Source of the DNA: Acidisoma sp. L85
GTDB lineage: Bacteria > Pseudomonadota > Alphaproteobacteria > Acetobacterales > Acetobacteraceae
Assembly: GCF_009765865.1 (NCBI RefSeq)
Contig: NZ_LMUQ01000026.1
Location: 1-64,000, forward strand
Length of the DNA: 64,000 nt
Direction of reading: 5' to 3'
Positions within the stretch are counted from its first letter, which is position 1. Each line of letters opens with the position of its first letter. Below, one piece after another: positions 10,755 through 28,209 of this stretch. The translations under genes were made by a program, and so were the position numbers. Below the pieces are notes generated by a model. It made no database searches. It had not been told where the DNA came from and worked only from the letters and a program-made list of their open reading frames with translations.

Positions 10755-11681
10755 ATGGCAGTGCACATCGCCGTCCTCATCGCTGCGCGGAACGTCGCCG
10801 CCTATGTGGCTTATGCGATCGAGTCGGTCATGGCTCAAACTCATCGCAACTGGACGCTTGTCGTTGTCGATGACGGCTCGACCGATCGCACCGGAGAGGT
10901 CACAGCGCGCTACAACGATCCCCGTATCCTTCAGCTAAGACAGGCGGCCCAGGGTGTCTCCGCGGCCCGCAACGCGGCTTCAGCGGGGGCGGGGGCGCCC
11001 GATGCGCTGCTGTTTCTGGATGCGGATGACTGGCTCGCGCCAAACGCTCTGGCGCGGCTCGCTGCTGCCCTGATGGCGGATCCGTCCGCTGTCGCCGCCC
11101 ACGCGCCCTATGCCTTTGTCGCGGAAGGCGCGACACCTCGGCGGCCGGGGAAAGTGGAGCGGCATGCGCCGGCCGCTCCGGCCGATCTGCTGCCCAGGCT
11201 CATACGCGGCAATATATTCGTGAATGGCGGCCATGTGCTCATCCGCAGCTCGGCCTGGATGAAGGCAGGCCACTTCCGCCGGGAGCTGAGCTTTGGCGAG
11301 GACTGGGAATTCTGGACGAGACTGGCGCTGCGCGGACGTTTCGTCGCGGTCAGCGGTCCGCCCGTCCTCTTCGTGCGTCGCCGCGACGGCAGCGCCATGC
11401 GACGCTTCGCGGCTGATCCCGCCGCCTATCGTCCGGCTTTGGCGGCGATCGCCACCAACCGCCAGCTCGCGATCCGGCTAGGCCCGGCCAGGCTCGAGCG
11501 TCTCGTTCGCGTCGCGGCGGCGGAGGTGAGCTGGACCGTTGGATGGGAACTGCTGCGGCGGGGCCGCCGCCGGGCAGGCGTTTCCAGCTTGCGCCGAGGT
11601 CTGCGCGCCAAGCCCGGACCGCGCCGCGCTGCGCTTCTGGCGCTGGTCGCCTGTGGGCTCCTCAGCCGCCGGAGAGTTTGA
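10755..11681 (+). CDS. Family 2 glycosyltransferase
   Basis: 308 residues from the ATG at 10755; the frame opens at a TTG six codons earlier. GT-A fold: IAVLIAARNVAAYV at the N-terminus, DDGSTD at residues 39-44, the metal-binding DADD at 89-92 and the acceptor-side segment FGEDWEFWTRLALRG. It transfers a nucleotide-activated sugar to an unknown acceptor at the inner face of the membrane; no membrane segment is obvious apart from a hydrophobic C-terminus (RRAALLALVACGLL). The downstream neighbour is a PfkB kinase, with no other envelope genes nearby, so the glycan it serves is not evident. Confidence 0.88.
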   Translation: MAVHIAVLIAARNVAAYVAYAIESVMAQTHRNWTLVVVDDGSTDRTGEVTARYNDPRILQLRQAAQGVSAARNAASAGAGAPDALLFLDADDWLAPNALARLAAALMADPSAVAAHAPYAFVAEGATPRRPGKVERHAPAAPADLLPRLIRGNIFVNGGHVLIRSSAWMKAGHFRRELSFGEDWEFWTRLALRGRFVAVSGPPVLFVRRRDGSAMRRFAADPAAYRPALAAIATNRQLAIRLGPARLERLVRVAAAEVSWTVGWELLRRGRRRAGVSSLRRGLRAKPGPRRAALLALVACGLLSRRRV

Positions 11682-11792
11682 TCCGCGCGGCCATGGCGCA
11701 GGGTCGGGCGGCTTGGCGTCTGGCACGAGGTCGCTCATGTTACCTGTCCCACCGGCGCAACTTAAGCGGCGGTGGATGGGAGGGGACCGCAC

Positions 11793-12743
11793 ATGGCCCA
11801 TGACGTTGTCTCGTTGGGAGAATTGCTGATCGACCTCGTGCCGCTGCCCGACGAAGGCCAGGGGCTGAGCTTTGTCGCGAAGCCCGGTGGCGCGCCGGGC
11901 AATGCCGCCGTCGGTCTCGCCAAGCTCGGCCGCTCGGTCGCGATGCTGAGCAAGGTCGGTGCCGACGCCTTCGGCCGCTTGCTGACCTCGACCGTCGAGG
12001 CGGCGGGCGTCTCCATCGCTGGCATCGCCGTCTCGCCGGTCCATCGCACCGGCTTGGCAGTGGTGACTCTGGATGCCGGCGGTGACCGGGACTTCCTGTT
12101 CTATCGGGAGAACTGCGCCGACGTGAACTTCTCGGTCGAGGAGGTGCGGGAGGATCTCATCCGAGCCGCCGGAATTCTCCATGTGAACAGCCTGGTGCTG
12201 GCCAGCCCGATCTCCGCCGACGCGCAGCGGCACGCGATCTCCGTCGCGCACAAGGCGGGGATTCTGATCTCGGCCGACCCCAATCTTCGCCCGCTCCTCT
12301 GGGCCGATCGCGCGGCGATGGTCGCGGCGGCGCGGGAAGTGGTGGGAACCGCCAATATCCTCAAGATCGGCGAGGACGAACTTGCGACCATCACCGGGAT
12401 CAGCGACCCGCATGAGGCTCTGAGGTCCCTGTGGCACCCCGGCCTTCAGGTCGCCGCCATCACGGCCGGCGCGCGGGGTGCGACCATCGTGACGCCTGAT
12501 GAGCGAGTGACGGTGCAGGGCATGCCGGTCCGCGTCGTCGATACCACCGGGGCCGGTGATGCCTTCATGGCCGCCTTCCTGGCCGGGCTGCTCGACTCAG
12601 GCTTCGATCTCTCGCGGGTCTCGCTGGAGAAGATCGGCATCGAGGCCTGTGCTTTCGGCGCCATCACCACCACCGCCGCCGGCGGCATGGACGCCATGCC
12701 GGACCGCGACAAATTGGAGAGTTTTCTAGGCGACAGGAGCTAG
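11793..12743 (+). CDS. PfkB-family carbohydrate kinase (fructokinase-like)
   Basis: 316 residues from ATG 11793, with GGAGGGGACC about 10 bases upstream. The N-terminal SLGELLIDLVP and GGAPGNAAVGLAKLG form the sugar-binding lid region. The C-terminal DTTGAGDAFMAAFLAG contains the anion hole and catalytic Asp. Ribokinase/fructokinase superfamily; fructose is the most likely substrate by similarity of the N-terminus to bacterial fructokinases, but substrate cannot be read from sequence alone. It stands alone between a glycosyltransferase and dksA. Confidence 0.9.
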   Translation: MAHDVVSLGELLIDLVPLPDEGQGLSFVAKPGGAPGNAAVGLAKLGRSVAMLSKVGADAFGRLLTSTVEAAGVSIAGIAVSPVHRTGLAVVTLDAGGDRDFLFYRENCADVNFSVEEVREDLIRAAGILHVNSLVLASPISADAQRHAISVAHKAGILISADPNLRPLLWADRAAMVAAAREVVGTANILKIGEDELATITGISDPHEALRSLWHPGLQVAAITAGARGATIVTPDERVTVQGMPVRVVDTTGAGDAFMAAFLAGLLDSGFDLSRVSLEKIGIEACAFGAITTTAAGGMDAMPDRDKLESFLGDRS

Positions 12744-16862: not shown

Positions 16863-16890
16863 TTGACGCGCAGGTTTACAACACTTAAAT
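16863..16890 (+). promoter_or_regulatory. Candidate sigma70-type promoter of the 1,217-aa orphan
   Basis: TTGACG at 16863-16868, 16-base spacer, TTAAAT at 16885-16890, about 86 bases upstream of the ATG at 16977. The surrounding 100 bases are distinctly AT-rich against kdsA. No enterobacterial-type hrp box was recognised here. Confidence 0.35.
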
Positions 16891-16976
16891 CAATACGATG
16901 TCGAAAATTTGAGGAAAGATCTTCACGAAACCAAAAGCTTTTTGCTGCTCCACTGTCGGTGCGGAGGAAAGCAAAA

Positions 16977-19900
16977 ATGGTTACCGCGCATCTCTGGGGG
17001 CATGATCCTGCCCCGTTCACACGCCAGCATAGGCCCGAGGACACAAGAAATTCGGCTGCCTTTGATGCCGGCCTCAAAGAGGCTCGTTCGGTGCCGAAGG
17101 ATATCTCTGAACCGAAGCTTCGCGGTCCGCCACCATCCTTAAGACCACGCGTCGCGCGGAAAGCGCATGAGCCCTCCCCAGCCAAGGTTGAAGGCGAACC
17201 TGTTTCAACGATCGATTGGAGCGATCCAGAGGCGGTTCGTCACTTCCTGATCGAGCTCCACAATAAGGAACCCAAAACAGCGGTTGCCAACGAAATCTTC
17301 CGAAACGGGATCATCAACCCTCGTGCGCTCGAGGGTTTTACGCGGGACTTCGCCAAGGAGTTAAAGTCACTGCCGCCCGGCGCGGATAGGGACGCCCTTG
17401 CACCACTTATCGCGAAACTCGAAGGACTGCCGGGCCGTCTCTACCAGGATTGCGTCGGGCTTGCCGCCAAAACGCCGGGCGAGCCTCTCGATCCGGCGCT
17501 GGCGATCGAACACCTCGCCGACCTGTTTGACGACATGCTGTTGGCCTGTAATCAAGCCAAGAAGAACGCGTCGACGGAGGACGGCAAGGCGCTTATCGGC
17601 TGGCTTGCCGCCATGATGCTGGCATCTAAGCGGATGGCGCGCACCAACTCGATCATTCCACTGATCGAACTTGCGGGGGTGGAGGGCTTCGCAGCACTCA
17701 AGAAAACGGCTCATCAGCATGGAATTCCCAGATCCGGGCATTCCGTTACTTATGGCGACAATGTCGGCGTGCAGGGCGGTGTTGGCCTTACCAAAGGAAA
17801 TAGTGGCATCTTCAATATTAGCGCCCTCCTTCCGGTGGGCCTGCAGCGAACCATCAGTTGGTCACGCGACAAGGACGGCGACCTCAACCGCTACAAGCTA
17901 ACGGGCTTCAAGGCCGGGTTGAAGGCAAGCTTCGGCGTTTTTGCGGCGGTCTCAGCTAGTCTGGGCTTTTCCGTTTTGGCTGAATGGGGCCGTTATCTCG
18001 AATCAAGCATGGATGCGCCGGGCATGGCAGTCGCGGCCTCGCAATATAGTGTTTTCCAAGGGCCCATCGGCAATCTCTTCTCCCACCGAGCAAATCGCGG
18101 CGCGCGCGAAAGGCATGAGGCGACACGAAGCTTCAAGAGTTTCTGGAGGCTCTTTTTTAGCGGTCATCGTGATCCGCTGCCAAACAAGCTGCCATACTTC
18201 ATGAACGCCGAAAAAATGGGAAAAGGGGTGAGCAGGGTCGGCATTCATCAGGCCGGCAGCCAGGTGGGCGCTTATCTCGATGCAGCGAGAGGTGGGCATC
18301 ATCATACAAATGCAATCGATCGCATGCTGCGCAAATACCTCCCGCGTAATAAAGATTTCGAGCGGATTGCTGAACGACAGGAGAATCCTGAGAACGCGCT
18401 CGCAGCGCTTTACCTCGACAATTACAACCAGAGGATTTCCGGGCCGGACAATGTGACAGATGCGAAATTGAAGGGAGACCCGCGCGCCTGGCAGCAGTTC
18501 ACCGCAGCCGTCAATGCCGATCTCCGATTTACACCCCTCTCGGCGGAGGCAGTCACCGGCGGAACGCTCAAGAATGTTTTTAATACTCGGATCGCCGGGA
18601 ATGCCGATCTGCTCGGGCAGCTTTACATCAAAAAACGAAGTGTCCGGCTCTCACGAACTAACAGGCCCATCGCCGAGATGATGAACATTGGCTACCTGAA
18701 AGAGAGCGACGAGGGCTTTAAATTCTTGGGACGTCTTTGGCATGATTATGGCGAGGCCGGCACCGCCCCCTCCGGGCCGCGCGCCACGCATCCGGCTTTG
18801 CGCCTTTCCAAGAAATTCTGGCCAATGTTCGGACAGAACAAACCTCATGCTCGGTATTTTGACGACGCGCGACGCAGATTTTACGGCGATCCGGCAGCGA
18901 TGGCGGACCATCATTTCCACGTGGCGGCCGAGCTCAGGGATGGCGGCGATCCGGTCGAGCTCATGAAACAGATCGATCGCAATCTGGATCGTCTCGTCGA
19001 GACGTACAAGGGCTTCATGTCCGACGTCGACGATGCGATGCCGGGCAACTTCTTTTCGCCCGAGCCAGCGCTGGACCGGATCAACCAGAACATTTTTGGG
19101 GGCGACTATCCGCTGGATGGAACGCCGGAGGCAACGCTCAAGATCCAGGCCGATGGCGTCAACAGCTTTTCTCTGGCGCTGTCGGACCTGGCGTTATCGA
19201 TTGCTGCCGCGAAGCACGAGGGGTCTCTCCGCGAACCCAATCCTGAGGCGGATAAGCTTGGACAGGCGCTCGACGCGCGGTACAAGGACGTCGCCAAGTT
19301 ATTGAGTAGCGAGTCATTTGCGATGCCGCGCCGCGATTCCCGCCGCCGGGCTGTCTTTCGGACCGCGGCTGCTTCGACGAAACTGACAACCTATGGGGAA
19401 TTCGATTTCGCGCTAAACTTCTTAAACCTCGGCCAGATGCTCGCTAACGTCAACAGCGCGGTTCTCCCAGTCCTGCCTTTCCAGCCCCAGGGCCAAGCCG
19501 AGGTCACGCTCTTTTTCGAGAGGGACGTGGTCAAACTTCACTCGGATCCGGGTCGTGTCGGAACCTACTGGACGCATGGCATGTCGGCGCAAACGCTGCA
19601 TGGACTTGGTGTGGCGAAGCGATTTTTTCAGAAACTATTCGGGAAAGGGCGCAATGAAATCCCGCCAGAAGATGTGGATGAAGATCTTCTAAAAGAGATC
19701 AAGCTCCATGGATTTCAAAGCTTGATCAACAATAATTGGTTTTTCAATGTAACCAAAGTCTATCATCGTCTGCCTGACGTCGCCCGTCATTCGCTTGTGG
19801 AGAAGCTCGAGACCAGGACCGTCTACCGGGGCCACACCAACAGCACCAGCTTTCCCACACCAAACCTGGCGTCGGCGGCTATGGCCCATGGTATCCCAGC

Positions 19901-20630
19901 GGTGCTCAACATCACCGGGGGTATGTCCTCCGGAACCCAGAAGGTGAGCAGCTTCAAACTCGGCGGCGATCTGCAGAACGCCTTGCTTCACTTCACTGGG
20001 CAATTCTCCAAGCTCTTTATTGCCGATCCCAATGGCGAACTCGATATCGCCGCCACCGCACAAGCCTTCGCGAAAGATCCTATGCTTCTGGAGGCATTGT
20101 TCTCCGATGAGGGTGCTATTCTCGATGTCTTGAATCAGATTATCCAGTTCGATCCAAAGCGTCCGTTCGCGCCCTTCGTCGATATCGACTGGAAGACACG
20201 CAACAGTTTCAATCCGATGGCGTTCTATGTGGATGAGGATCGGATGCGCGTGTTCAGGTCGAGCGCCGCGGCGAACCACTTCTCGCCGGGTTCCGGTAAG
20301 ATCGCGAGCGCGGGTCCGGGTAAGGAGTCCGCGGTACTTGAACTCTTCAAGCAGTGCCGGCGCCTGAGGCGGGACGAACCTGAGCTTCTCGCACGCATCA
20401 GGGAACTTTTCGTACAGCAGGCGGATTGGACGCCGAAGGAGCAGTTCGACTTTTTCACGAAGACTAAGGAGGGCCGGCACCTTTTCAAAACCTTCTATAG
20501 CCTTATGTCGAAGCTTGCCGAAGCGCGTGTCGACTTGCTCAACGCGCGTGGCTATCCGCTATTGTTGAACGAACCATTCCTTGACTCTTTCCCTACCACC
20601 TACTCTCGGGCACCCGTGGCCGCCCACTAA
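16977..20630 (+). CDS. Large orphan protein, effector-like (1,217 aa)
   Basis: The ATG at 16977 follows GGAGG with a nine-base spacer; an upstream TTG at 16863 would add 38 residues and overlaps the probable promoter. Residues 1-75 are polar and Pro/Arg/Lys-rich without a Sec signal. Residues 80-250 look helical. Residues 255-340 are Gly/Ser/Val-rich alternating segments (GDNVGVQGGVGLTKGNSG, FKAGLKASFGVFAAVSASLG) that read like amphipathic beta strands. Further strand-like stretches occur in the last third, around ITGGMSSGTQKVSSFKLGG and QAEVTLFFERDVVKL. No catalytic motif recognised. Size, non-Sec N-terminus and strand pattern recall type III effectors of the AvrE/DspE class, but this is only an architectural resemblance. 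GC is lower than in kdsA. It stands alone between kdsA and a permease. Confidence 0.75.
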   Translation: MVTAHLWGHDPAPFTRQHRPEDTRNSAAFDAGLKEARSVPKDISEPKLRGPPPSLRPRVARKAHEPSPAKVEGEPVSTIDWSDPEAVRHFLIELHNKEPKTAVANEIFRNGIINPRALEGFTRDFAKELKSLPPGADRDALAPLIAKLEGLPGRLYQDCVGLAAKTPGEPLDPALAIEHLADLFDDMLLACNQAKKNASTEDGKALIGWLAAMMLASKRMARTNSIIPLIELAGVEGFAALKKTAHQHGIPRSGHSVTYGDNVGVQGGVGLTKGNSGIFNISALLPVGLQRTISWSRDKDGDLNRYKLTGFKAGLKASFGVFAAVSASLGFSVLAEWGRYLESSMDAPGMAVAASQYSVFQGPIGNLFSHRANRGARERHEATRSFKSFWRLFFSGHRDPLPNKLPYFMNAEKMGKGVSRVGIHQAGSQVGAYLDAARGGHHHTNAIDRMLRKYLPRNKDFERIAERQENPENALAALYLDNYNQRISGPDNVTDAKLKGDPRAWQQFTAAVNADLRFTPLSAEAVTGGTLKNVFNTRIAGNADLLGQLYIKKRSVRLSRTNRPIAEMMNIGYLKESDEGFKFLGRLWHDYGEAGTAPSGPRATHPALRLSKKFWPMFGQNKPHARYFDDARRRFYGDPAAMADHHFHVAAELRDGGDPVELMKQIDRNLDRLVETYKGFMSDVDDAMPGNFFSPEPALDRINQNIFGGDYPLDGTPEATLKIQADGVNSFSLALSDLALSIAAAKHEGSLREPNPEADKLGQALDARYKDVAKLLSSESFAMPRRDSRRRAVFRTAAASTKLTTYGEFDFALNFLNLGQMLANVNSAVLPVLPFQPQGQAEVTLFFERDVVKLHSDPGRVGTYWTHGMSAQTLHGLGVAKRFFQKLFGKGRNEIPPEDVDEDLLKEIKLHGFQSLINNNWFFNVTKVYHRLPDVARHSLVEKLETRTVYRGHTNSTSFPTPNLASAAMAHGIPAVLNITGGMSSGTQKVSSFKLGGDLQNALLHFTGQFSKLFIADPNGELDIAATAQAFAKDPMLLEALFSDEGAILDVLNQIIQFDPKRPFAPFVDIDWKTRNSFNPMAFYVDEDRMRVFRSSAAANHFSPGSGKIASAGPGKESAVLELFKQCRRLRRDEPELLARIRELFVQQADWTPKEQFDFFTKTKEGRHLFKTFYSLMSKLAEARVDLLNARGYPLLLNEPFLDSFPTTYSRAPVAAH

Positions 20631-20763
20631 GGCGGTCCACGCCTAACCGCGAGGATATACGCGAAACGAGACGCTTGGATTAAATGCTTCGGTAATCACA
20701 AGTCTTTAGCTTCCCTCTCGAAAAGTCGCTACGGCGACGACACGATTAACCGAGGGGTAATTG

Positions 20764-22350
20764 ATGAAGGGTCACTTAAGGCGCGAGGTCGGCGCCTGGC
20801 CGCTGCTGTTTACAGGCATCGGATCGATTATTGGTTCGGGTTGGCTCTTCGGCGCGGGACGCGCGGCCGCGATCGCCGGACCCGCCGCCATTCTGGCATG
20901 GATCGTCGGCGGTCTCGTCGTCCTGACCATTGCGGGCGTCGCTTCCGAGTTGGGCGGCATGTTTCCGGAGACCGGCGGTACGGTGCGCTACGCCTATTAC
21001 ACCCACGGCTCGCTTGTCGGTTTTCTTTCGGCCTGGGCTAATTGGCTGGCGATCGTCACCGTCATTCCAATCGAGGCGGAAGCCTCGATCCAATATATGA
21101 GCTCCTGGCCTTTCGCGTGGTGCCACCGGCTGTTTCAGAATGGACACCTGACGTTTCTCGCGATCGTGCTCTCAGGTTTCCTCATCATTGGCTATTTCCT
21201 GCTGAACTATTGGGGCGTCCGGCTCTTTGCCCGGGTCAACACGCTCATCACCATCTTCAAGCTGCTGGTGCCGGCGATGACGGCGGTCGCATTGCTCTCC
21301 ACAGGCTTCCATCCGGGCAATGTGACGGGAGCGACGGGCGGCGGTTTCATGCCCTATGGCGCCGCCAGCGTGCTGACCGCCGTCGCGACGTCCGGCATCA
21401 TCTTCGCTTTTAACGGCTTCCAAAGTCCGCTTAATTTGGCAGGAGAAGCGCAAAACCCCGCACGCGATATTCTGTTCTCGGTCGTCGGCTCGGTGCTTAT
21501 CTCGGGTGTGATCTATCTGCTTCTGCAGATCGCCTATCTCGGCGCCGTCGATCCGCGTTTGGTGATTCATGGCTGGAGTGGGATAAAGTTCAGCTCACCC
21601 TTCGCGCAACTCGCGATGTCCTTCGGACTCTCCTGGCTCGCGATGCTGCTCTATTTCGACGCTTTCTTGAGCCCCAGCGGCACGGGTATCGCCTATGTCG
21701 CGGCAACGAGCCGCATGGTTTACGCGACGAGCCGAGGCGGCATATTGCCCGCGATGTTCTCCCGGCTTCATCCCATTACCGGCGCGCCGCGCCCGGCGCT
21801 TTGGTTCAACTTCGTCGTGTCCATCGTTTTCCTTTGTTTCTTTCGCGGCTGGAGCGCGCTGGCGGCGGTCATTTCGGTCGCCACCGTCATCAGCTTCCTC
21901 ATGATGCCGGTCTGCGCTCTCAGCTTGCGCCGTATCGCGCCCGATCTACGGCGCCCGATCAAGCTGCCGGCCATGGAGATTCTCGCACCGACGGGCTTTG
22001 TCTTCGCGTCCCTGTTGCTCTACTGGGCGCGCTGGCCGCTGACCGGGAAGATCATCCTGCTTCTATTGGCCGCCGTACCAATCTACGCCTTCTACCAGAG
22101 CCGCGTCGGCTGGAGTAGCTTCCGCCCCCAGTTGCGTGCCGGCTGGTGGTTCGTCGGGTATTTTCTGGTGATGTGCCTGGTGTCCTGGGGCGGCAGCAAA
22201 CGCTTCGGCGGCGCAAATTACGTGCCTTTTGGCTGGGACATGGTCTTGGTCATCGTGGTGGCGCTGGGCTTCTTCTGGTGGGGCATCCGGAGCGCCTGGC
22301 AAACACCGGACATCGTTGAAACACGAGCCAATGGCGGTTTCTGGGATTAG
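20764..22350 (+). CDS. APC-superfamily amino acid/amine permease
   Basis: 528 residues from the ATG at 20764 (a TTG immediately before it is possible); CGAGGGG lies about six bases upstream. About 12-14 membrane helices. The first contains the APC signature GIGSIIGSGWLFGAG, the unwound substrate-binding helix of this fold. FAFNGFQSPLNLAGEAQNP in helix 6 and the NYWGVRLFARVNTLITIFK loop are also typical. Substrate is not readable; amino acids or polyamines are usual for the family. The downstream BetI-like/Rieske fusion suggests possible uptake of a quaternary or other amine used by the oxygenase (inference). Confidence 0.9.
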   Translation: MKGHLRREVGAWPLLFTGIGSIIGSGWLFGAGRAAAIAGPAAILAWIVGGLVVLTIAGVASELGGMFPETGGTVRYAYYTHGSLVGFLSAWANWLAIVTVIPIEAEASIQYMSSWPFAWCHRLFQNGHLTFLAIVLSGFLIIGYFLLNYWGVRLFARVNTLITIFKLLVPAMTAVALLSTGFHPGNVTGATGGGFMPYGAASVLTAVATSGIIFAFNGFQSPLNLAGEAQNPARDILFSVVGSVLISGVIYLLLQIAYLGAVDPRLVIHGWSGIKFSSPFAQLAMSFGLSWLAMLLYFDAFLSPSGTGIAYVAATSRMVYATSRGGILPAMFSRLHPITGAPRPALWFNFVVSIVFLCFFRGWSALAAVISVATVISFLMMPVCALSLRRIAPDLRRPIKLPAMEILAPTGFVFASLLLYWARWPLTGKIILLLLAAVPIYAFYQSRVGWSSFRPQLRAGWWFVGYFLVMCLVSWGGSKRFGGANYVPFGWDMVLVIVVALGFFWWGIRSAWQTPDIVETRANGGFWD

Positions 22351-22373
22351 CCGCCACATCCTCTCGCCGAATA

Positions 22374-22421
22374 ATACGGCCATTCAACAATCTTGCCCAT
22401 ATTGTTGAATGGCCGTATAAC
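22374..22421 (+). promoter_or_regulatory. Operator-promoter of the TetR-Rieske fusion gene
   Basis: Perfect 18-bp inverted repeat, ATACGGCCATTCAACAAT (22374-22391) and its exact complement at 22401-22418, separated by nine bases. A promoter with TTGCCC at 22393-22398, 17-base spacer and TATAAC at 22416-22421 is embedded: the right arm fills the spacer and enters the -10. The expected transcript starts about 20 bases before the ATG at 22449. This is the geometry of a TetR-family autorepression site. It could also fold as a terminator for the upstream permease, but it has no T tract. Confidence 0.7.
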
Positions 22422-22448
22422 ACGGTCAGGGCGAGGCAGGAGAAGCCG

Positions 22449-24314
22449 ATGTCGGATGGTTTGGTGCGGGTCGATCGGGGCACACGAGAGGGACGGCGCC
22501 GCGAGCTCATCGAGGCGGCAACCGGGGTGATCGCCGAACATGGGCTTGCCGGCACGACGCTGGCGCGCGTCGCGGCCGAGGCGGGTCTGTCGGCAGGCAT
22601 CGTCAACCATCATTTCGCGACCAAGGACACCTTGCTGCTCGAAACCCTGCGAACCCTGTCCGAGGAATTTGGACGGCGGGTGGAGACGGTGCTGTCCGAG
22701 GCGGGTGATAATGCGGTGGATGGGTTGCGGGGTCTGGTCCTGCTGCATTTCGACCGTGACCTTGCAAGCGCCCGGCATGTCGCTGTCTGGTACGCGTTTC
22801 AGTCCGAGGCGCGCTGGCGAGCCTCCTACACGACCCTCTGCGGCGAGCATGACCGTTTCCAAATGGCCGCGATCCGCGATCTGATCGGCGCCGTGGGGGG
22901 CCCGAAATGTGATTCGGATGTGCTGGCGCGGTCGCTGATCGGCCTGCTGGATAGCTATTGGCAGGATATCCTCTTCGACGAGCCGGCCTTTGACCGGCAG
23001 GCGGCTGTGGCGGGCTGCCTGCGTTTCCTCGCGGTGATCCTGCCCGGCTTCCCCGCCGACCCTCCAGCCGCCAAATCCCCCGCGACCATCATCGCCTTCC
23101 CAGGCGGCGAGACAACCGACGGTGCCCCGGAAAAACCGGCAGGCCCGCCCGAGACGCTGCCGAGCTGGACCTATGTGAGCGAGGAGTTCTTCGCCCTCGA
23201 GCGGCAGGAGATCTTCCTCAAGGAGTGGCACATCGTCTGCCACATCAGCCAGCTCCAGAATCCCGGCGACTACCGCAGCTTCTCCTTGCTCGGGGAGCGC
23301 GCCTTTGTCATTCGCGGCAAGGATGGCGTGGTGCGCGGCTTCAACAACGTCTGCCGTCATCGCGCGCATGCGGTGGTGACGGGAGAGGGCGGCAATTGCC
23401 CCGGCGCCATTGTCTGCCCGTATCATGGCTGGTCCTTCAAGCTGGATGGCGCGCTGAACACCGTGGCGGCGCCTCATAGCTTCGCGGAGTTCGAACGCCT
23501 GGATTACGGCCTCTTCGGCGTCGAGACCGAAGTCTTCATGGGCTTCGTCTTCATCCGCTTCGGCGGCGACGGCCCCTCGGTTGCCGAACGCCTGGCGCCC
23601 TATGCGGAGGAGATGAAGGCGTATCGTTTCGACGAACTGGTTCCAGCGAGCGAACTCACCGTTCAGGAGAATCACGCGGACTGGAAGACCGTCTGGGACA
23701 ATTACCTGGAGGGCTATCACTTCGCCAAAGGCCACCCGGAACTCTTCAGCCTCATGGGCAACCGCTACGATCTCGCAGCCGATCCCGCGCGCCGGGTAGC
23801 GAGGCTGGGCCACTCGCTGCGGCAAAAGGCGGGCACGAGCTGGTCGGGCCGGATGTATCAGTCGCTGAGGCGCAGGCCGGAGCATCTGCCGGAGCATATG
23901 CGGGAAAACTGGACCTATCTCTTCTTCTTCCCGCTGCTTTCCTTCGACGTCTATCCTGAGATGATCGGCCATTTTCAGGTTCTGCCGACCGGCCCTGGAA
24001 CCTCTCAGCTTCGTTACCAGAATTTCTGTCTGCCCGAGCAACTCGAGGGGCGGCAGGCGCGGGCGGAGCGCTGGCTCAACGCGCGCATCAACAATCGCGT
24101 GCAAGGCGAGGATGACGCGCTTGTGACTTCGGTTCAAGGCGGCCTTAGTTCGAGCGCCTACAGCGTCGGCGTGCTTTCAGAGAAAGAAGTCATCGTCCAC
24201 AACTTTCAGAATTGGGTGAGGGATCGCCTGCCCATTGCGACAGTCCTCCGGCGTCCGGAGCCTGGAACAATGGCCGCCATCAACCGCGATTTGATGGCGC
24301 AGCGTATGAACTGA
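22449..24314 (+). CDS. TetR/BetI-type regulator fused to a Rieske non-heme iron oxygenase
   Basis: 621 residues in one unbroken frame. Residues 1-200 form a TetR-family regulator with helix-turn-helix about 36-56 (TTLARVAAEAGLSAGIVNHHF) and a BetI-like ligand domain (AVWYAFQSEARWR, ARSLIGLLDSYWQ). A Pro/Ala linker spans about 200-238. Residues 240-621 form an aromatic-ring-hydroxylase-type alpha subunit: Rieske [2Fe-2S] ligands C302-x-H304 and C323-x2-H326, and the mononuclear iron site around DNYLEGYHFAKGH (His424, His429). Related oxygenases attack glycine betaine, choline, carnitine or stachydrine. The gene has its own promoter and GGAG ribosome site. No reductase gene is adjacent, so an electron donor must be encoded elsewhere. 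The combination suggests a substrate-sensing enzyme that regulates its own synthesis. Confidence 0.93.
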   Translation: MSDGLVRVDRGTREGRRRELIEAATGVIAEHGLAGTTLARVAAEAGLSAGIVNHHFATKDTLLLETLRTLSEEFGRRVETVLSEAGDNAVDGLRGLVLLHFDRDLASARHVAVWYAFQSEARWRASYTTLCGEHDRFQMAAIRDLIGAVGGPKCDSDVLARSLIGLLDSYWQDILFDEPAFDRQAAVAGCLRFLAVILPGFPADPPAAKSPATIIAFPGGETTDGAPEKPAGPPETLPSWTYVSEEFFALERQEIFLKEWHIVCHISQLQNPGDYRSFSLLGERAFVIRGKDGVVRGFNNVCRHRAHAVVTGEGGNCPGAIVCPYHGWSFKLDGALNTVAAPHSFAEFERLDYGLFGVETEVFMGFVFIRFGGDGPSVAERLAPYAEEMKAYRFDELVPASELTVQENHADWKTVWDNYLEGYHFAKGHPELFSLMGNRYDLAADPARRVARLGHSLRQKAGTSWSGRMYQSLRRRPEHLPEHMRENWTYLFFFPLLSFDVYPEMIGHFQVLPTGPGTSQLRYQNFCLPEQLEGRQARAERWLNARINNRVQGEDDALVTSVQGGLSSSAYSVGVLSEKEVIVHNFQNWVRDRLPIATVLRRPEPGTMAAINRDLMAQRMN

Positions 24315-24388: not shown

Positions 24389-25342
24389 ATGGATGCGCCG
24401 GCCGCCACCGAGAAAAAGCCTTGGGCAGTCTGGGCCATGACGAAAGACACGATCAGCGGCTATATCGAGGACAATTGCCTCAGCCGTGGCGCGTCGATCG
24501 CCTATTTCACCGTGTTCTCGCTGGCTCCTATCTTGCTGGTGATGATCGCCATCGCCGGCTTTGTGTTCGGCGAGGATGCCGCACGCGGCGTGCTATTCGG
24601 CAAGCTCAAGGGCATGCTGGGTCCGGACGCCGCCGGCCTCATCCAGTCGATGATCCAGAGCGCGTCGAACAAGAAGTCCGGCGTTATCGCGACGGTCTCC
24701 TCCGTTGTCATCTTGCTGATATCGGCGAGCGGCGTCTTTGGGGAGCTGCAGTCCTCCCTGAACGCGATCTGGAAAGCCGATCCCTCGGCGGAACACTCGA
24801 CCGTGACGCGGCTGGTCAAGGCGCGCGCGCAGAGCCTGGGCCTGGTCGCGAGCCTGGGCTTCCTGTTACTGGTGTCGCTCGCGATCAGCGCCGCCCTCAC
24901 CGCGGCCTGGAACCGCGTCAACCAAGTCGTTCCCGGCGTAAGTTTTCTGTTGCGCTTCATTAATATCGGCATTTCCTTCGCGATCACCGCGGTGCTCTTC
25001 GCCGCGGTCTATAAGGTCTTGCCGGACAAGAAACTCGAATGGCGAGACGTCATCATCGGCTCGCTGTTCACCGCTGTGCTCTACGTCATTGGCAAGACGG
25101 GCATCGCTCTCTACATCGGCAGCAGCCACGTCGCTTCTTCCTATGGCGCTGCCAGTGCGTTGGTGATCTTGCTTCTATGGGTCTATTACTCGGCGCAGAT
25201 CTTTCTGTTGGGGGCGGAGTTCACCAAGGTCTATGCGCATCGGCACGGTAGCCAGGCGCAGCGGTGGATGAACTGGCAGTTCTGGCATCGGTCTTCTCCC
25301 GCTAAGCCGCCGGTTCCGCCATCCGCACCGCAGCCACGCTGA
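24389..25342 (+). CDS. YihY/virulence factor BrkB family inner-membrane protein
   Basis: 317 residues, about six membrane helices. The family signature is at the N-terminus (DNCLSRGASIAYFTVFSLAPILLVMIAIAG) and ASGVFGELQSSLNAIW. The family was once annotated as ribonuclease BN in error; its true role is unknown (envelope integrity or transport are suggested). AAGGAGGACATCGG precedes the ATG. The tail is Pro-rich (SSPAKPPVPPSAPQP). It follows the fusion gene by 74 bp and may be cotranscribed with it. Confidence 0.92.
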   Translation: MDAPAATEKKPWAVWAMTKDTISGYIEDNCLSRGASIAYFTVFSLAPILLVMIAIAGFVFGEDAARGVLFGKLKGMLGPDAAGLIQSMIQSASNKKSGVIATVSSVVILLISASGVFGELQSSLNAIWKADPSAEHSTVTRLVKARAQSLGLVASLGFLLLVSLAISAALTAAWNRVNQVVPGVSFLLRFINIGISFAITAVLFAAVYKVLPDKKLEWRDVIIGSLFTAVLYVIGKTGIALYIGSSHVASSYGAASALVILLLWVYYSAQIFLLGAEFTKVYAHRHGSQAQRWMNWQFWHRSSPAKPPVPPSAPQPR

Positions 25343-25491: not shown

Positions 25492-26742
25492 ATGGATGGA
25501 AGCTTTCCGCTACCGCGTATCGCCGATAATGCGAGCCCCGCTCTCGACCCCGCGGCCTCGCCACATCCGAAGGTCCCAGCGACCGTGGGGCCGGAGGTTC
25601 CGCAAATCCTGACGCAGGAGGGACCGCGCGGCATCCGCTTCGACTTCAACGACGGCGCCCGCATCGCTTTGCCACCAGGGCAATGGCGTGTGCGGCTGCG
25701 GGACCTCGATACGGCCAATGTCCTTTTCGACGGACCATCGGAGGGCGGCGTCGTCGCCAGCACGAAGCACTGGTTCATTCGGTTCGAAATGGAAGTGTGG
25801 GAGCACGGCGTCAGCATCTTCCGCCATGAATATGACGCGCGGGACAAGCCCGTTCTGCTGCGCTTCGACCGGGCGATAGGCGATACCATCGCCTGGTTCT
25901 CCTATGCCGTGCAGTTTCAGGAACGGCATGGATGCCGGATGACCTGCGAAATGGTCCCAAGTCTCATTCCGCTATTCCAGGGGGCCTATCCGCATATCAC
26001 CTTGGTTCCGCTCGGCACCCCGGATCCTGACCAATTCTATGCGACGTACAAGGTGATGGTCTTCTTCAACGACGTGAAGAATGATTGGCAGCCCTATGAC
26101 TATCGGGCGGACGCACTGCATCACATGGCGGGCGCCATCCTCGGCCTCCCAAGGCGGGAAGCGCGTCCGCGTCTCGCCTATGACGATCCCGGCCGGCCGC
26201 TTTTGGAGCCTTATGTTTGCATCGCGGTACAGGGTTCCGCGCAGCTTAAGAAGTGGAACAATCCGACGGGTTGGGACGACGTCGTCGGCTTCCTCAAGGC
26301 TTCTGGCTATCGCGTGATCTGCATTGATCGCAATGCGGTCGATGGGCGGGAGCATGTCCTCACGTCCATGCCCCGTGGCGCCGAGGACCAGACCGGTGAC
26401 AAGCCCTTTCCTGAACGAGCCCGTTGGCTGAAACATGCTGAGTTCTTCGTCTGTGTCTCCTCCGGGCTTTCCTGGCTAGGCTGGGCAGTCGGGACGCCTG
26501 TCGTGCTGATCAGCGGCTTTACCCATCCTCACAACGAGTTCCACACGCCCTACCGTGTCATTAACTGGCATAGCTGCAATTCCTGCTGGAACGATGTGCG
26601 CTGCCATTTCAGCCGTACCGATTTCTTGTGGTGCCCGCGGCAAAAAGACACGCCGCGGATGTTCGAATGCTCGCGCCTCATCACGGCCGAGCAAGTGAAA
26701 GGGCGTATTCGCCAGATCCCTGGTTTTCTCGGCAATCAATGA
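25492..26742 (+). CDS. Autotransporter O-heptosyltransferase (BAHT family), paralog 1
   Basis: 416 residues. Bacterial autotransporter heptosyltransferases (TibC, Aah class) O-glycosylate serines of AIDA-I/TibA-type passenger domains in the cytoplasm using ADP-heptose. Visible features: N-terminal beta domain (about 35-125, TQEGPRGIRFDFNDGARI and FRHEYDAR), GT-B-like catalytic part with PYVCIAVQGSAQLKKWNNP and FVCVSSGLSWLGWAVGTPVVLISGFT. The C-terminal iron finger is C362-x2-C-x15-C-x11-C393, matching the Fe(III)-binding Cys motif of TibC. ATG 25492 has GGAG eight bases upstream. The paralog downstream is clearly homologous throughout. No autotransporter substrate gene is in the window. Confidence 0.88.
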   Translation: MDGSFPLPRIADNASPALDPAASPHPKVPATVGPEVPQILTQEGPRGIRFDFNDGARIALPPGQWRVRLRDLDTANVLFDGPSEGGVVASTKHWFIRFEMEVWEHGVSIFRHEYDARDKPVLLRFDRAIGDTIAWFSYAVQFQERHGCRMTCEMVPSLIPLFQGAYPHITLVPLGTPDPDQFYATYKVMVFFNDVKNDWQPYDYRADALHHMAGAILGLPRREARPRLAYDDPGRPLLEPYVCIAVQGSAQLKKWNNPTGWDDVVGFLKASGYRVICIDRNAVDGREHVLTSMPRGAEDQTGDKPFPERARWLKHAEFFVCVSSGLSWLGWAVGTPVVLISGFTHPHNEFHTPYRVINWHSCNSCWNDVRCHFSRTDFLWCPRQKDTPRMFECSRLITAEQVKGRIRQIPGFLGNQ

Positions 26743-26773
26743 TGCTGTTGTGCGAAAGATCATTATAAGGCTG

Positions 26774-26788
26774 TCGTTTACTAAACGA
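26774..26788 (+). promoter_or_regulatory. 15-bp palindrome TCGTT-N5-AACGA before the second heptosyltransferase
   Basis: TCGTTTACTAAACGA, arms TCGTTTA/TAAACGA around one base. It follows TATAAG (26764-26769), a possible -10, so it would overlap the transcription start. A second hairpin, CCCGCA-N5-TGCGGG, follows at 26800-26816. The same TCGTT-N5-AACGA pattern recurs at 57866-57880 upstream of the outer-membrane barrel gene. Likely operator. Confidence 0.5.
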
Positions 26789-26853
26789 TAAGGCTTCATC
26801 CCGCAGATTGTGCGGGCGAGGTGGGGAGGTCTCCGCCAGGTGGAACCTTAGCC

Positions 26854-28209
26854 ATGACGATACCAAATCGTAACAGAATGACCCTCATGAGGCCGTCGCG
26901 TCGACAATTCCGCGGGGCCAGAGCAGATCGAAAGGTGGAGGCCGTGGACGGCACTATCAGTATTACCATCCCGAACAGCGAGACCAGTCAAGTAACGAAA
27001 TCCGTAACGCCGCCGGCTGTCGAGCCGGTGGCTGCGGTTCCCGCGAAAGTCAAAGGCAGCTTCCCCGAGCCGCCTCCGGTGCCGACTCAGGAGGGGCCGC
27101 TCGGCATCCGTTTCGACTTCAACCAAGGCGTTCGGGTCAAGGTGCCCGATGGCGATTGGCGTATCCAGCTCCGCGATCTGGATACCAACAACATCCTCTT
27201 CAACTCCCCCACCAAGGCGTCCTTCGTCGTCAGCTCGAAACGCTTTTATGTACGCTTCGGGGTCGAGGTTTGGCAGAATGAGGTCAGTGTCTTTCGTCAC
27301 GAATACGATGCGCGCGGAAAGGAGGTGCTGGTCAATCTGCCGGTCGGAACCTTGGGCGACACGCTCGGCTGGTTCCCCTATGTGGAGAAGATGCGCGTAA
27401 AACTTGGTTGCCGCATGAGCTGCGGCATGAACCCAGTCATCATTCCGCTGCTACAGCCCGCATACCCCGAGATTACCTTCGTGCCGATGGATGACATCAA
27501 TCCGGCGCTCTACTACGCCACCTACAATATCGGGCTGTTCTTCGATGATTCCGGCTTTGTCTATCAACCGACGGATTTCCGGCTTGTTGGATTGCATCGC
27601 ACGGCGGCCTATATCCTCGGCGTCGATCCCGAGGAACTGCCGCCGAAGCTCGCTCTTCCCGATGACAGGCCGCCGATCGCCGAACCCTATGTCTGCATCG
27701 CGGTGCAAGCGAGCACCCAGGCGAAGAAGTGGAACAATCCGCACGGCTGGGCGGAGGTTATCCGGTTTCTCAAGGATCGCGGCTACCGTGTCATCTGCAT
27801 CGACAAGGAATCGACTCACGGCCAAGGGCTTGCCTGGACCCATATTCCGCATGGCGCCGAGGATCAGACGGGGGACCGTCCGCTCGCCGAACGCGCACGC
27901 TGGCTACGTCACGCCAAATGTTTCATCGGCCCCTCCTCGGGCCTCGTCTGGCTCGCCTGGGCGGCTCAATGCCCCACTGTGATGATCTCGGGCTTCACCC
28001 ATCCGACGAATGAATTCGCGACCGACGGCCGCGTCATCAATTGGCACGCTTGCAATAGCTGCTGGAACGACCCGCGTCATCGCTTCGACCACAAGGATTT
28101 CCTGTGGTGTCCGCGCCACAAGGATACAGACCGGCAATTCGAATGCACACGGCTGATCACCGCGGAGCAAGTCAAACGCGCCGTGATCGCGGTGCTCGGC
28201 AAAGAATGA
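26854..28209 (+). CDS. Autotransporter O-heptosyltransferase (BAHT family), paralog 2
   Basis: 451 residues from the ATG at 26854. A GTG at 26944 also has an upstream AGGTGGAG and gives a protein beginning MDG exactly like paralog 1, so the shorter start is a serious alternative. Same domain order: PTQEGPLGIRFDFNQGVRVK, VFRHEYDARGKEVL, PYVCIAVQASTQAKKWNNP, FIGPSSGLVWLAWAAQ, and an iron finger with identical spacing C-x2-C-x15-C-x11-C ending at Cys431. Similar along its whole length to paralog 1, with differences concentrated at the N-terminus. The pair may glycosylate different passengers or act as a complex, as TibC forms large oligomers. Followed by a hairpin at 28272. Confidence 0.88.
   Translation: MTIPNRNRMTLMRPSRRQFRGARADRKVEAVDGTISITIPNSETSQVTKSVTPPAVEPVAAVPAKVKGSFPEPPPVPTQEGPLGIRFDFNQGVRVKVPDGDWRIQLRDLDTNNILFNSPTKASFVVSSKRFYVRFGVEVWQNEVSVFRHEYDARGKEVLVNLPVGTLGDTLGWFPYVEKMRVKLGCRMSCGMNPVIIPLLQPAYPEITFVPMDDINPALYYATYNIGLFFDDSGFVYQPTDFRLVGLHRTAAYILGVDPEELPPKLALPDDRPPIAEPYVCIAVQASTQAKKWNNPHGWAEVIRFLKDRGYRVICIDKESTHGQGLAWTHIPHGAEDQTGDRPLAERARWLRHAKCFIGPSSGLVWLAWAAQCPTVMISGFTHPTNEFATDGRVINWHACNSCWNDPRHRFDHKDFLWCPRHKDTDRQFECTRLITAEQVKRAVIAVLGKE

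Follow-up and report, generated by a model that had tools for sequence, protein, structure and literature searches.

A fused TetR repressor-Rieske oxygenase gene in Acidisoma sp. L85, a candidate self-controlling enzyme

The window analyzed here, a stretch of 64,000 nt, comprises bases 1-64000 of contig C45 in a 6.4-Mb assembly (85 contigs, 99.5% complete). Its + strand carries an open frame at 22449..24314 that starts with ATG and runs for 621 codons (621 aa) with zero internal stops, encoding a TetR-type repressor part followed by a Rieske oxygenase part. Four Pfam domains are found in the protein, all above their gathering scores: a TetR_N helix-turn-helix domain (residues 20-65, 22506..22643; E 3.9e-12, 46.2 bits against a cut-off of 24), a TetR_C_6 "BetI-type" ligand domain (residues 91-198, 22719..23042; E 6.7e-08), a Rieske [2Fe-2S] domain with C302, H304, C323, and H326 (residues 259-348, 23223..23492; E 2.7e-17), and a Ring_hydroxyl_A catalytic domain with E421, H424, H429, and D555, the last by motif (residues 408-594, 23670..24230; E 2.9e-33). 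The two parts are joined by a Pro/Ala-rich linker of 37 residues (200-236, 23046..23156). The first-pass annotation had described a frame unbroken from the helix-turn-helix to the iron site, with both Rieske ligand pairs and the His-x4-His motif intact; this description is borne out by the 621 open codons, the four domains, and the presence of C302-x-H304, C323-x2-H326, and H424-x4-H429. In terms of sequence architecture, an enzyme and a DNA-binding domain are contained within one chain.

Directly upstream on the same strand lies a gene for an APC-type amino acid permease (20761..22350, 529 aa, by Pfam), which by its position is a possible uptake partner of the fused oxygenase, and directly downstream a gene for a BrkB-family membrane protein (24389..25342, +, by Pfam). 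Ten more window genes were scanned, and most have housekeeping or surface roles (purine and CTP synthesis, DAHP-synthase family, glycosyltransferases, cytochrome c assembly). Upstream of the permease there is a 1255-aa open frame (16863-20630, +) with no Pfam match at 1e-5, and at 25492-28209 (+) two TibC-like/family 9 glycosyltransferase genes stand in tandem.

Between the permease and the fused gene there is a perfect inverted repeat (22374..22418) with two 18-bp arms, 22374-22391 and 22401-22418, in agreement with the palindrome that had been noted upstream of the gene. A search of the 6.4-Mb assembly allowing up to 3 mismatches gave one other match, with 3 mismatches, and the reversed control also gave one. 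The repeat was rejected as a dispersed repeat, as no genome copy has fewer than 3 mismatches, and as an intrinsic terminator, as no terminator-like site was found in 22300-22500. With a palindrome consensus, TTGAATGNNCATTCAA, drawn by eye from the window, L029/L030, L038, and L039 (fused loci described below), two operator-like sites were recognized: site 1 at 22371..22388 (10 of 14 consensus bases) and site 2, 33 bp from it, at 22404..22421 (11 of 14). The whole window holds 5 sites that score at least 10/14, and mononucleotide shuffles give an expectation of 6.1; the position of these sites, not their number, is therefore what is informative. Site 2 is overlapped by a promoter-like element seen by eye on the + strand, TTGCCC-17 bp-TATAAC (22393..22421); the promoter scan, which requires a T at the end of the second hexamer, did not list this element and listed one on the - strand.

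The oxygenase half is best read from its residues as a group V-like Rieske monooxygenase. Its nearest solved chain is CntA, the carnitine monooxygenase (E 1.7e-39), and Y419, E421, H424, and H429 align with CntA Y203, E205, H208, and H213 (chain numbering offset 20); the alignment reaches residue 433, and D555 as the third iron ligand is assigned by motif alone. As described in PMC7948474, CntA is a head-to-tail alpha-3 trimer in which Y203 makes a cation-pi contact to the quaternary ammonium and E205 serves as an electron bridge between subunits. The features of group V present in the fused protein are the C-x-H and C-x2-H pairs, the His-His-Asp iron site (Asp by motif), and the bridging carboxylate. 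The Cys-x-x-Cys pair beside the iron site is absent, with G422 and F425 at the places of CntA C206 and C209, and this pair is described as occurring in some group V enzymes only (PMC10952381). Because of Y419 and the CntA alignment, and with the Cys-x-x-Cys pair lacking, an N-methylated or quaternary amine would be a fair guess at the substrate, and no more. Homarine or trigonelline was considered for the pathway as a speculative idea. On the glycine betaine monooxygenase (GbcA) model NF058607 the oxygenase half scores 136.1 bits against a cut-off of 670, and GbcA equivalence was rejected; other Rieske genes of the same genome score much higher on this model, up to 470 bits. The earlier label "betaine oxygenase" is thereby reduced to a family resemblance. 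Among the matches listed, the Rieske relatives in the same genome are 27-39% identical to the fused protein. Another Rieske gene in this genome lies beside an FAD oxidoreductase gene on contig C59 (L104, 3991-6758, -); it has close relatives in three congeners (L013, L014, L016) and a 10/14 palindrome upstream.

The repressor half also falls below its family models, at 83.9 bits against a cut-off of 201.3 for TIGR03384 and 79 against 118 bits for PRK00767, and as both scores are below cut-off it was rejected as a BetI equivalog; "BetI", as the repressor had been named, likewise denotes resemblance to the family. Two congener loci, L010 and L011, have a TetR-only gene that is 58-59% identical to the repressor half, stops where the linker would start, and is followed by a BrkB gene as in the window. 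BrkB serves as a synteny marker here, the window and L011 copies being 71% identical. At L035 (167-1447, +) a TetR relative was observed with a different C-terminal extension of about 150 residues that has no Pfam match; this branch of TetR proteins may acquire C-terminal domains more than once.

The TetR-then-Rieske order was found in at least ten other records, nine of them full length and one ended by a contig edge; counting the window, the total is at least 11, of which ten are full length. Because the same order recurs in these ten other records, the fusion is neither a chance event nor a misassembly. The first-pass annotation had proposed a one-polypeptide fusion and advised a search for the same domain pair in relatives, and the proposal is upheld by what that search returned. 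A scan of genome contigs found the fused order in two MAG loci, L029 and L030 (59% identity). In taxon samples that overlap each other, and in which the best 3-4 candidates were scored in most genomes so that lower-ranked fusions may be missed, the fusion was seen in at least 2 of 299 genomes of the family (own and G180), 2 of 395 of the order (own and G408), 3 of 385 of the class (own, G624, and G797), and at least 1 of 398 of the phylum, where the own genome was the only one among the best candidates scored. In the family of G624 it occurs in 5 of 16 genomes, and a sixth, G845, has a copy that starts at a contig end within the last TetR residues. In the genus, one of five genomes has the fusion, two have the TetR part alone, and two have neither at comparable strength. 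Identity to the window protein is 33-60% over full-length alignments (30-55% for the TetR half and 30-65% for the Rieske half). The dN/dS of the pair L029/L030 is 0.06-0.12 in the four domain segments and 0 in the linker, and that of L040/L068 is 0.05-0.22 in the four domain segments and 0.05-0.26 over five segments. Of the 11 fused proteins, 10 keep the full set of four Rieske ligands and two iron histidines; L037 is the exception.

Homologous parts also occur apart. In Shinella (L087), Rhizobium (L089), and Fuscovulum (L088) the TetR and Rieske proteins are encoded by separate genes of one putatively catabolic cluster, together with two NAD(P)/FAD oxidoreductases, a GcvT-like aminomethyltransferase, a PotABCD-kind ABC transporter, and an aminotransferase, which in Fuscovulum is of class III. 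Parasedimentitalea has most of the cluster genes, with TetR absent from the stretch examined, and Sphingobium has the Rieske and an FAD gene with the rest of the cluster absent. Some fusion loci share genes with this cluster: FAD, GcvT, and transporter genes in L029, FAD and GcvT genes in L038, and an FAD gene in L040. In three further genomes (G723, G499, and G626) a separate TetR relative comes after the Rieske match on the same strand, with 111-122 bp between the matches. Separate neighbors on one side and a fusion on the other make a Rosetta-stone pattern, in which cluster mates have turned into one chain. Relatives with two separate genes had been named beforehand as evidence that would speak against the fusion: such relatives do exist, and two congeners have the TetR part only, but the fusion itself stands with ten other fused records. 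Among plasmid records with a match at E 1e-40, all eight have the Rieske part only and none is fused; carriage of the fusion on known plasmids was rejected, as the TetR part is lacking in 8 of 8. The own genome has a second, unfused set with its own TetR on contig C83, and the fused gene of the window stands apart from these cluster genes. Within the C83 locus (L102) an FAD1-like gene at 10788-12655 is split over two overlapping frames (homology 4-390 and 426-538), by decay or a sequencing slip, and a gene for a Hint_2-domain protein (17069-18412, -) adjoins the unfused cluster.

A TetR tree of 28 rows, from which duplicate loci and the weak matches L045, L047, and L052 had been removed, makes the window protein sister to the TetR-only L010/L011 (95/88) and groups all of these with the fused L038, L029, and L030 in one clade (99/96). 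In the Rieske tree (61 rows; L004, L017, L018, and L065 of the 65 left out by hand), the oxygenase halves of the window, L038, L029, and L030 form one clade (100/98). The simplest reading of the window clade is a single fusion, after which the two congeners lost the oxygenase half; a clade of its four fused TetRs without L010/L011 was weakly rejected (p 0.042). The fused genes of the G624 family form their own group (83/79) in the other half of the TetR tree, and the fused L037 is sister to the unfused TetR of L035 (100/100). A single clade of all ten fused TetR halves was rejected (p 0.00016), which makes a repeated origin likely: the join probably arose at least twice, with TetR first each time, and recombination or repeated splitting may be an alternative to two or more fusions. 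At least 3-4 changes are required to explain the fused rows of the Rieske tree; one solo row of this tree, L069, is the cut fusion, and L037 lies near the window clade on a very long branch (3.25), its placement unsure.

Next, the distribution of operator-like sites was compared over 59 promoter regions, a set that includes duplicates of one gene (L015/L104) and two L065 pieces and in which the fused gene of L037 is unscored. Sites of at least 11/14 are present at 6 of the 9 scored fused genes; among separate Rieske genes they occur at 9 of the 15 whose locus also holds a TetR relative, compared to 3 of 35 without one. This association of site and TetR gives Fisher p 2e-5 over 59 regions, many of them close kin; with kin collapsed to 14 clusters (54 of the 59 rows; L015, the two L065 rows, L064, and L069 dropped) it is 5/7 versus 1/7, p 0.10. 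Three fused genes, L040 and L068 (8/14) and L067 (10/14), have no good site, and none was found upstream of the TetR-only genes of L010 and L011. In Shinella and Rhizobium, which were not used for the motif, all three sites of at least 11 in the 25 kb scanned for each are at cluster promoters: one precedes the Rieske gene, one lies between the genes for the aminotransferase and the transporter, and one between those for the TetR and FAD proteins. The sole operator-like site in Fuscovulum is inside a gene, and Parasedimentitalea has none in the stretch scanned. In the window clade a second site was found at all four promoters, 33, 54, 54, and 21 bp away (about 3, 5, 5, and 2 helical turns), with shuffle p values of 0.017, 0.007, 0 of 300, and 0.003; a second site at p < 0.05 occurs at 1 of 16 unfused promoters, and the fused L039 and L066 have none.

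Because the fusion is real, the metal-site motifs are intact, and a conserved operator-like palindrome lies at the promoter, a self-regulating enzyme is the natural reading. We put the probability at roughly 60% that the product of the fused gene is a self-controlling bifunctional "trigger enzyme", PutA-like in its logic. The BetI-like TetR half would bind the palindromes over its own promoter and keep the gene off. A pathway amine, probably a quaternary or N-methylated ammonium compound, would release the repressor and allow the protein to accumulate, and the Rieske half would then oxidize the amine with electrons from a reductase presumably encoded elsewhere (no reductase gene was identified). 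Once the amine is consumed, repression would return. DNA binding by the TetR half and catalysis by the oxygenase half are inferred, as are the effector, the reductase, and any allosteric communication between the two. An extension, put forward tentatively as a minority possibility, is that the metal centers themselves act as the sensor of the repressor, so that substrate, O2, or the redox state of the cluster sets DNA release. If this were true, and if a CntA-like trimer is kept and the TetR halves dimerize, the protein would be a multi-headed repressor bridging paired operators on one DNA face, and the enzyme half of L037 would be one that decayed into a pure sensor domain.

The two halves could instead be tethered and yet uncoupled, each acting as its separate homologue does, with the join fixing their ratio, the amount of enzyme providing autoregulation, and neither the amine nor allostery connecting the two. 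A flexible linker, 18 to 58 residues long among the full-length fusions, and the occurrence of both parts alone in relatives agree with this; that the same two partners seem to have been fused more than once, each time in one order, hints indirectly at some gain from the join, and we regard the uncoupled arrangement as rather unlikely. More doubtful still is an oxygenase half that mainly senses substrate, iron, or redox state while separate Rieske enzymes catalyze. In its favor, the oxygenase half of L037 (G180) has D where the second Rieske histidine would be and has lost the two iron histidines, but 334 codons of it stay open and both of its Pfam domains pass, and operator-like sites precede a separate Rieske gene at this locus, itself interrupted by unread bases. 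This suggests that an oxygenase half can persist as a sensor. In both L039 and L066, the last 4 nt of the fused gene are shared with a second Rieske gene. Such a role fits poorly with the ligand motifs, which the remaining 10 of the 11 proteins retain, that of the window among them, and with the window gene, which has no second Rieske gene beside it.

It is very improbable that the TetR half is vestigial or serves for oligomerization only. This half is less conserved than the oxygenase half (54-55% versus 64-65% identity between the window and L029 or L038), but the helix-turn-helix is preserved in all ten full-length fusions, its dN/dS is low in the two pairs, and operator-like sites are present. 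We consider it hardly credible that two products arise, by cutting of the chain or from an internal start for the oxygenase. Separate-gene relatives exist, and some fusions have candidate starts in the linker region: an in-frame ATG preceded by AGGAG in L029 and L030, and a GTG with a weaker Shine-Dalgarno-like match ahead of it in L029 and in the cut L069; the ATG of L029/L030 lies beyond the conserved TLPxW motif, however, and in the window's linker region no in-frame start codon has a Shine-Dalgarno-like match, its two in-frame GTG codons included.

If the trigger-enzyme reading holds, the protein would join the few enzymes that have a built-in DNA-binding domain and act as repressors of their own genes, and two large and much-studied families, TetR and Rieske, would be newly paired in it. 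Why regulators fuse with enzymes becomes a testable question with this natural series, which comprises separate neighbors, fusions that probably arose at least twice, congeners that seem to have lost the enzyme half, and a relative in which that half has decayed. The fused protein might also serve as a one-chain sensor and catalyst for methylated amines. Literature searches found, among the matches listed, no description of the TetR-Rieske pairing, which protein databases may list as an architecture; for TetR/AcrR proteins, 70 kinds of companion domains have been counted, with no Rieske domain named in the part of the account used here (PMC5882156).

Among known systems, BetI, the choline-responsive TetR repressor, belongs to the same TetR branch as the repressor half (TetR_C_6 and the best NCBIfam repressor models), whereas the repressor half scores below both cut-offs, is fused to an oxygenase, and is not found among bet genes. 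With CntA and group V enzymes the fused protein shares the aligned Tyr, Glu, and two iron His, and it differs from them by the extra TetR domain and the lack of Cys-x-x-Cys beside the iron site. The unfused amine cluster has homologous TetR and Rieske proteins, but as two genes. PutA, the proline-utilization trigger enzyme, is described as a catabolic redox enzyme and a repressor of its own gene (PMC8249747, PMC6978683), and an E. coli survey lists five trigger enzymes (PMC8249747). The fused protein resembles PutA in having enzyme and repressor in one chain and a permease gene next door (putP there, the APC permease here). The DNA-binding domain of PutA has a fold other than TetR. PutA is a flavoenzyme, whereas here a TetR domain is joined to a Rieske iron oxygenase for which we infer a similar regulation.
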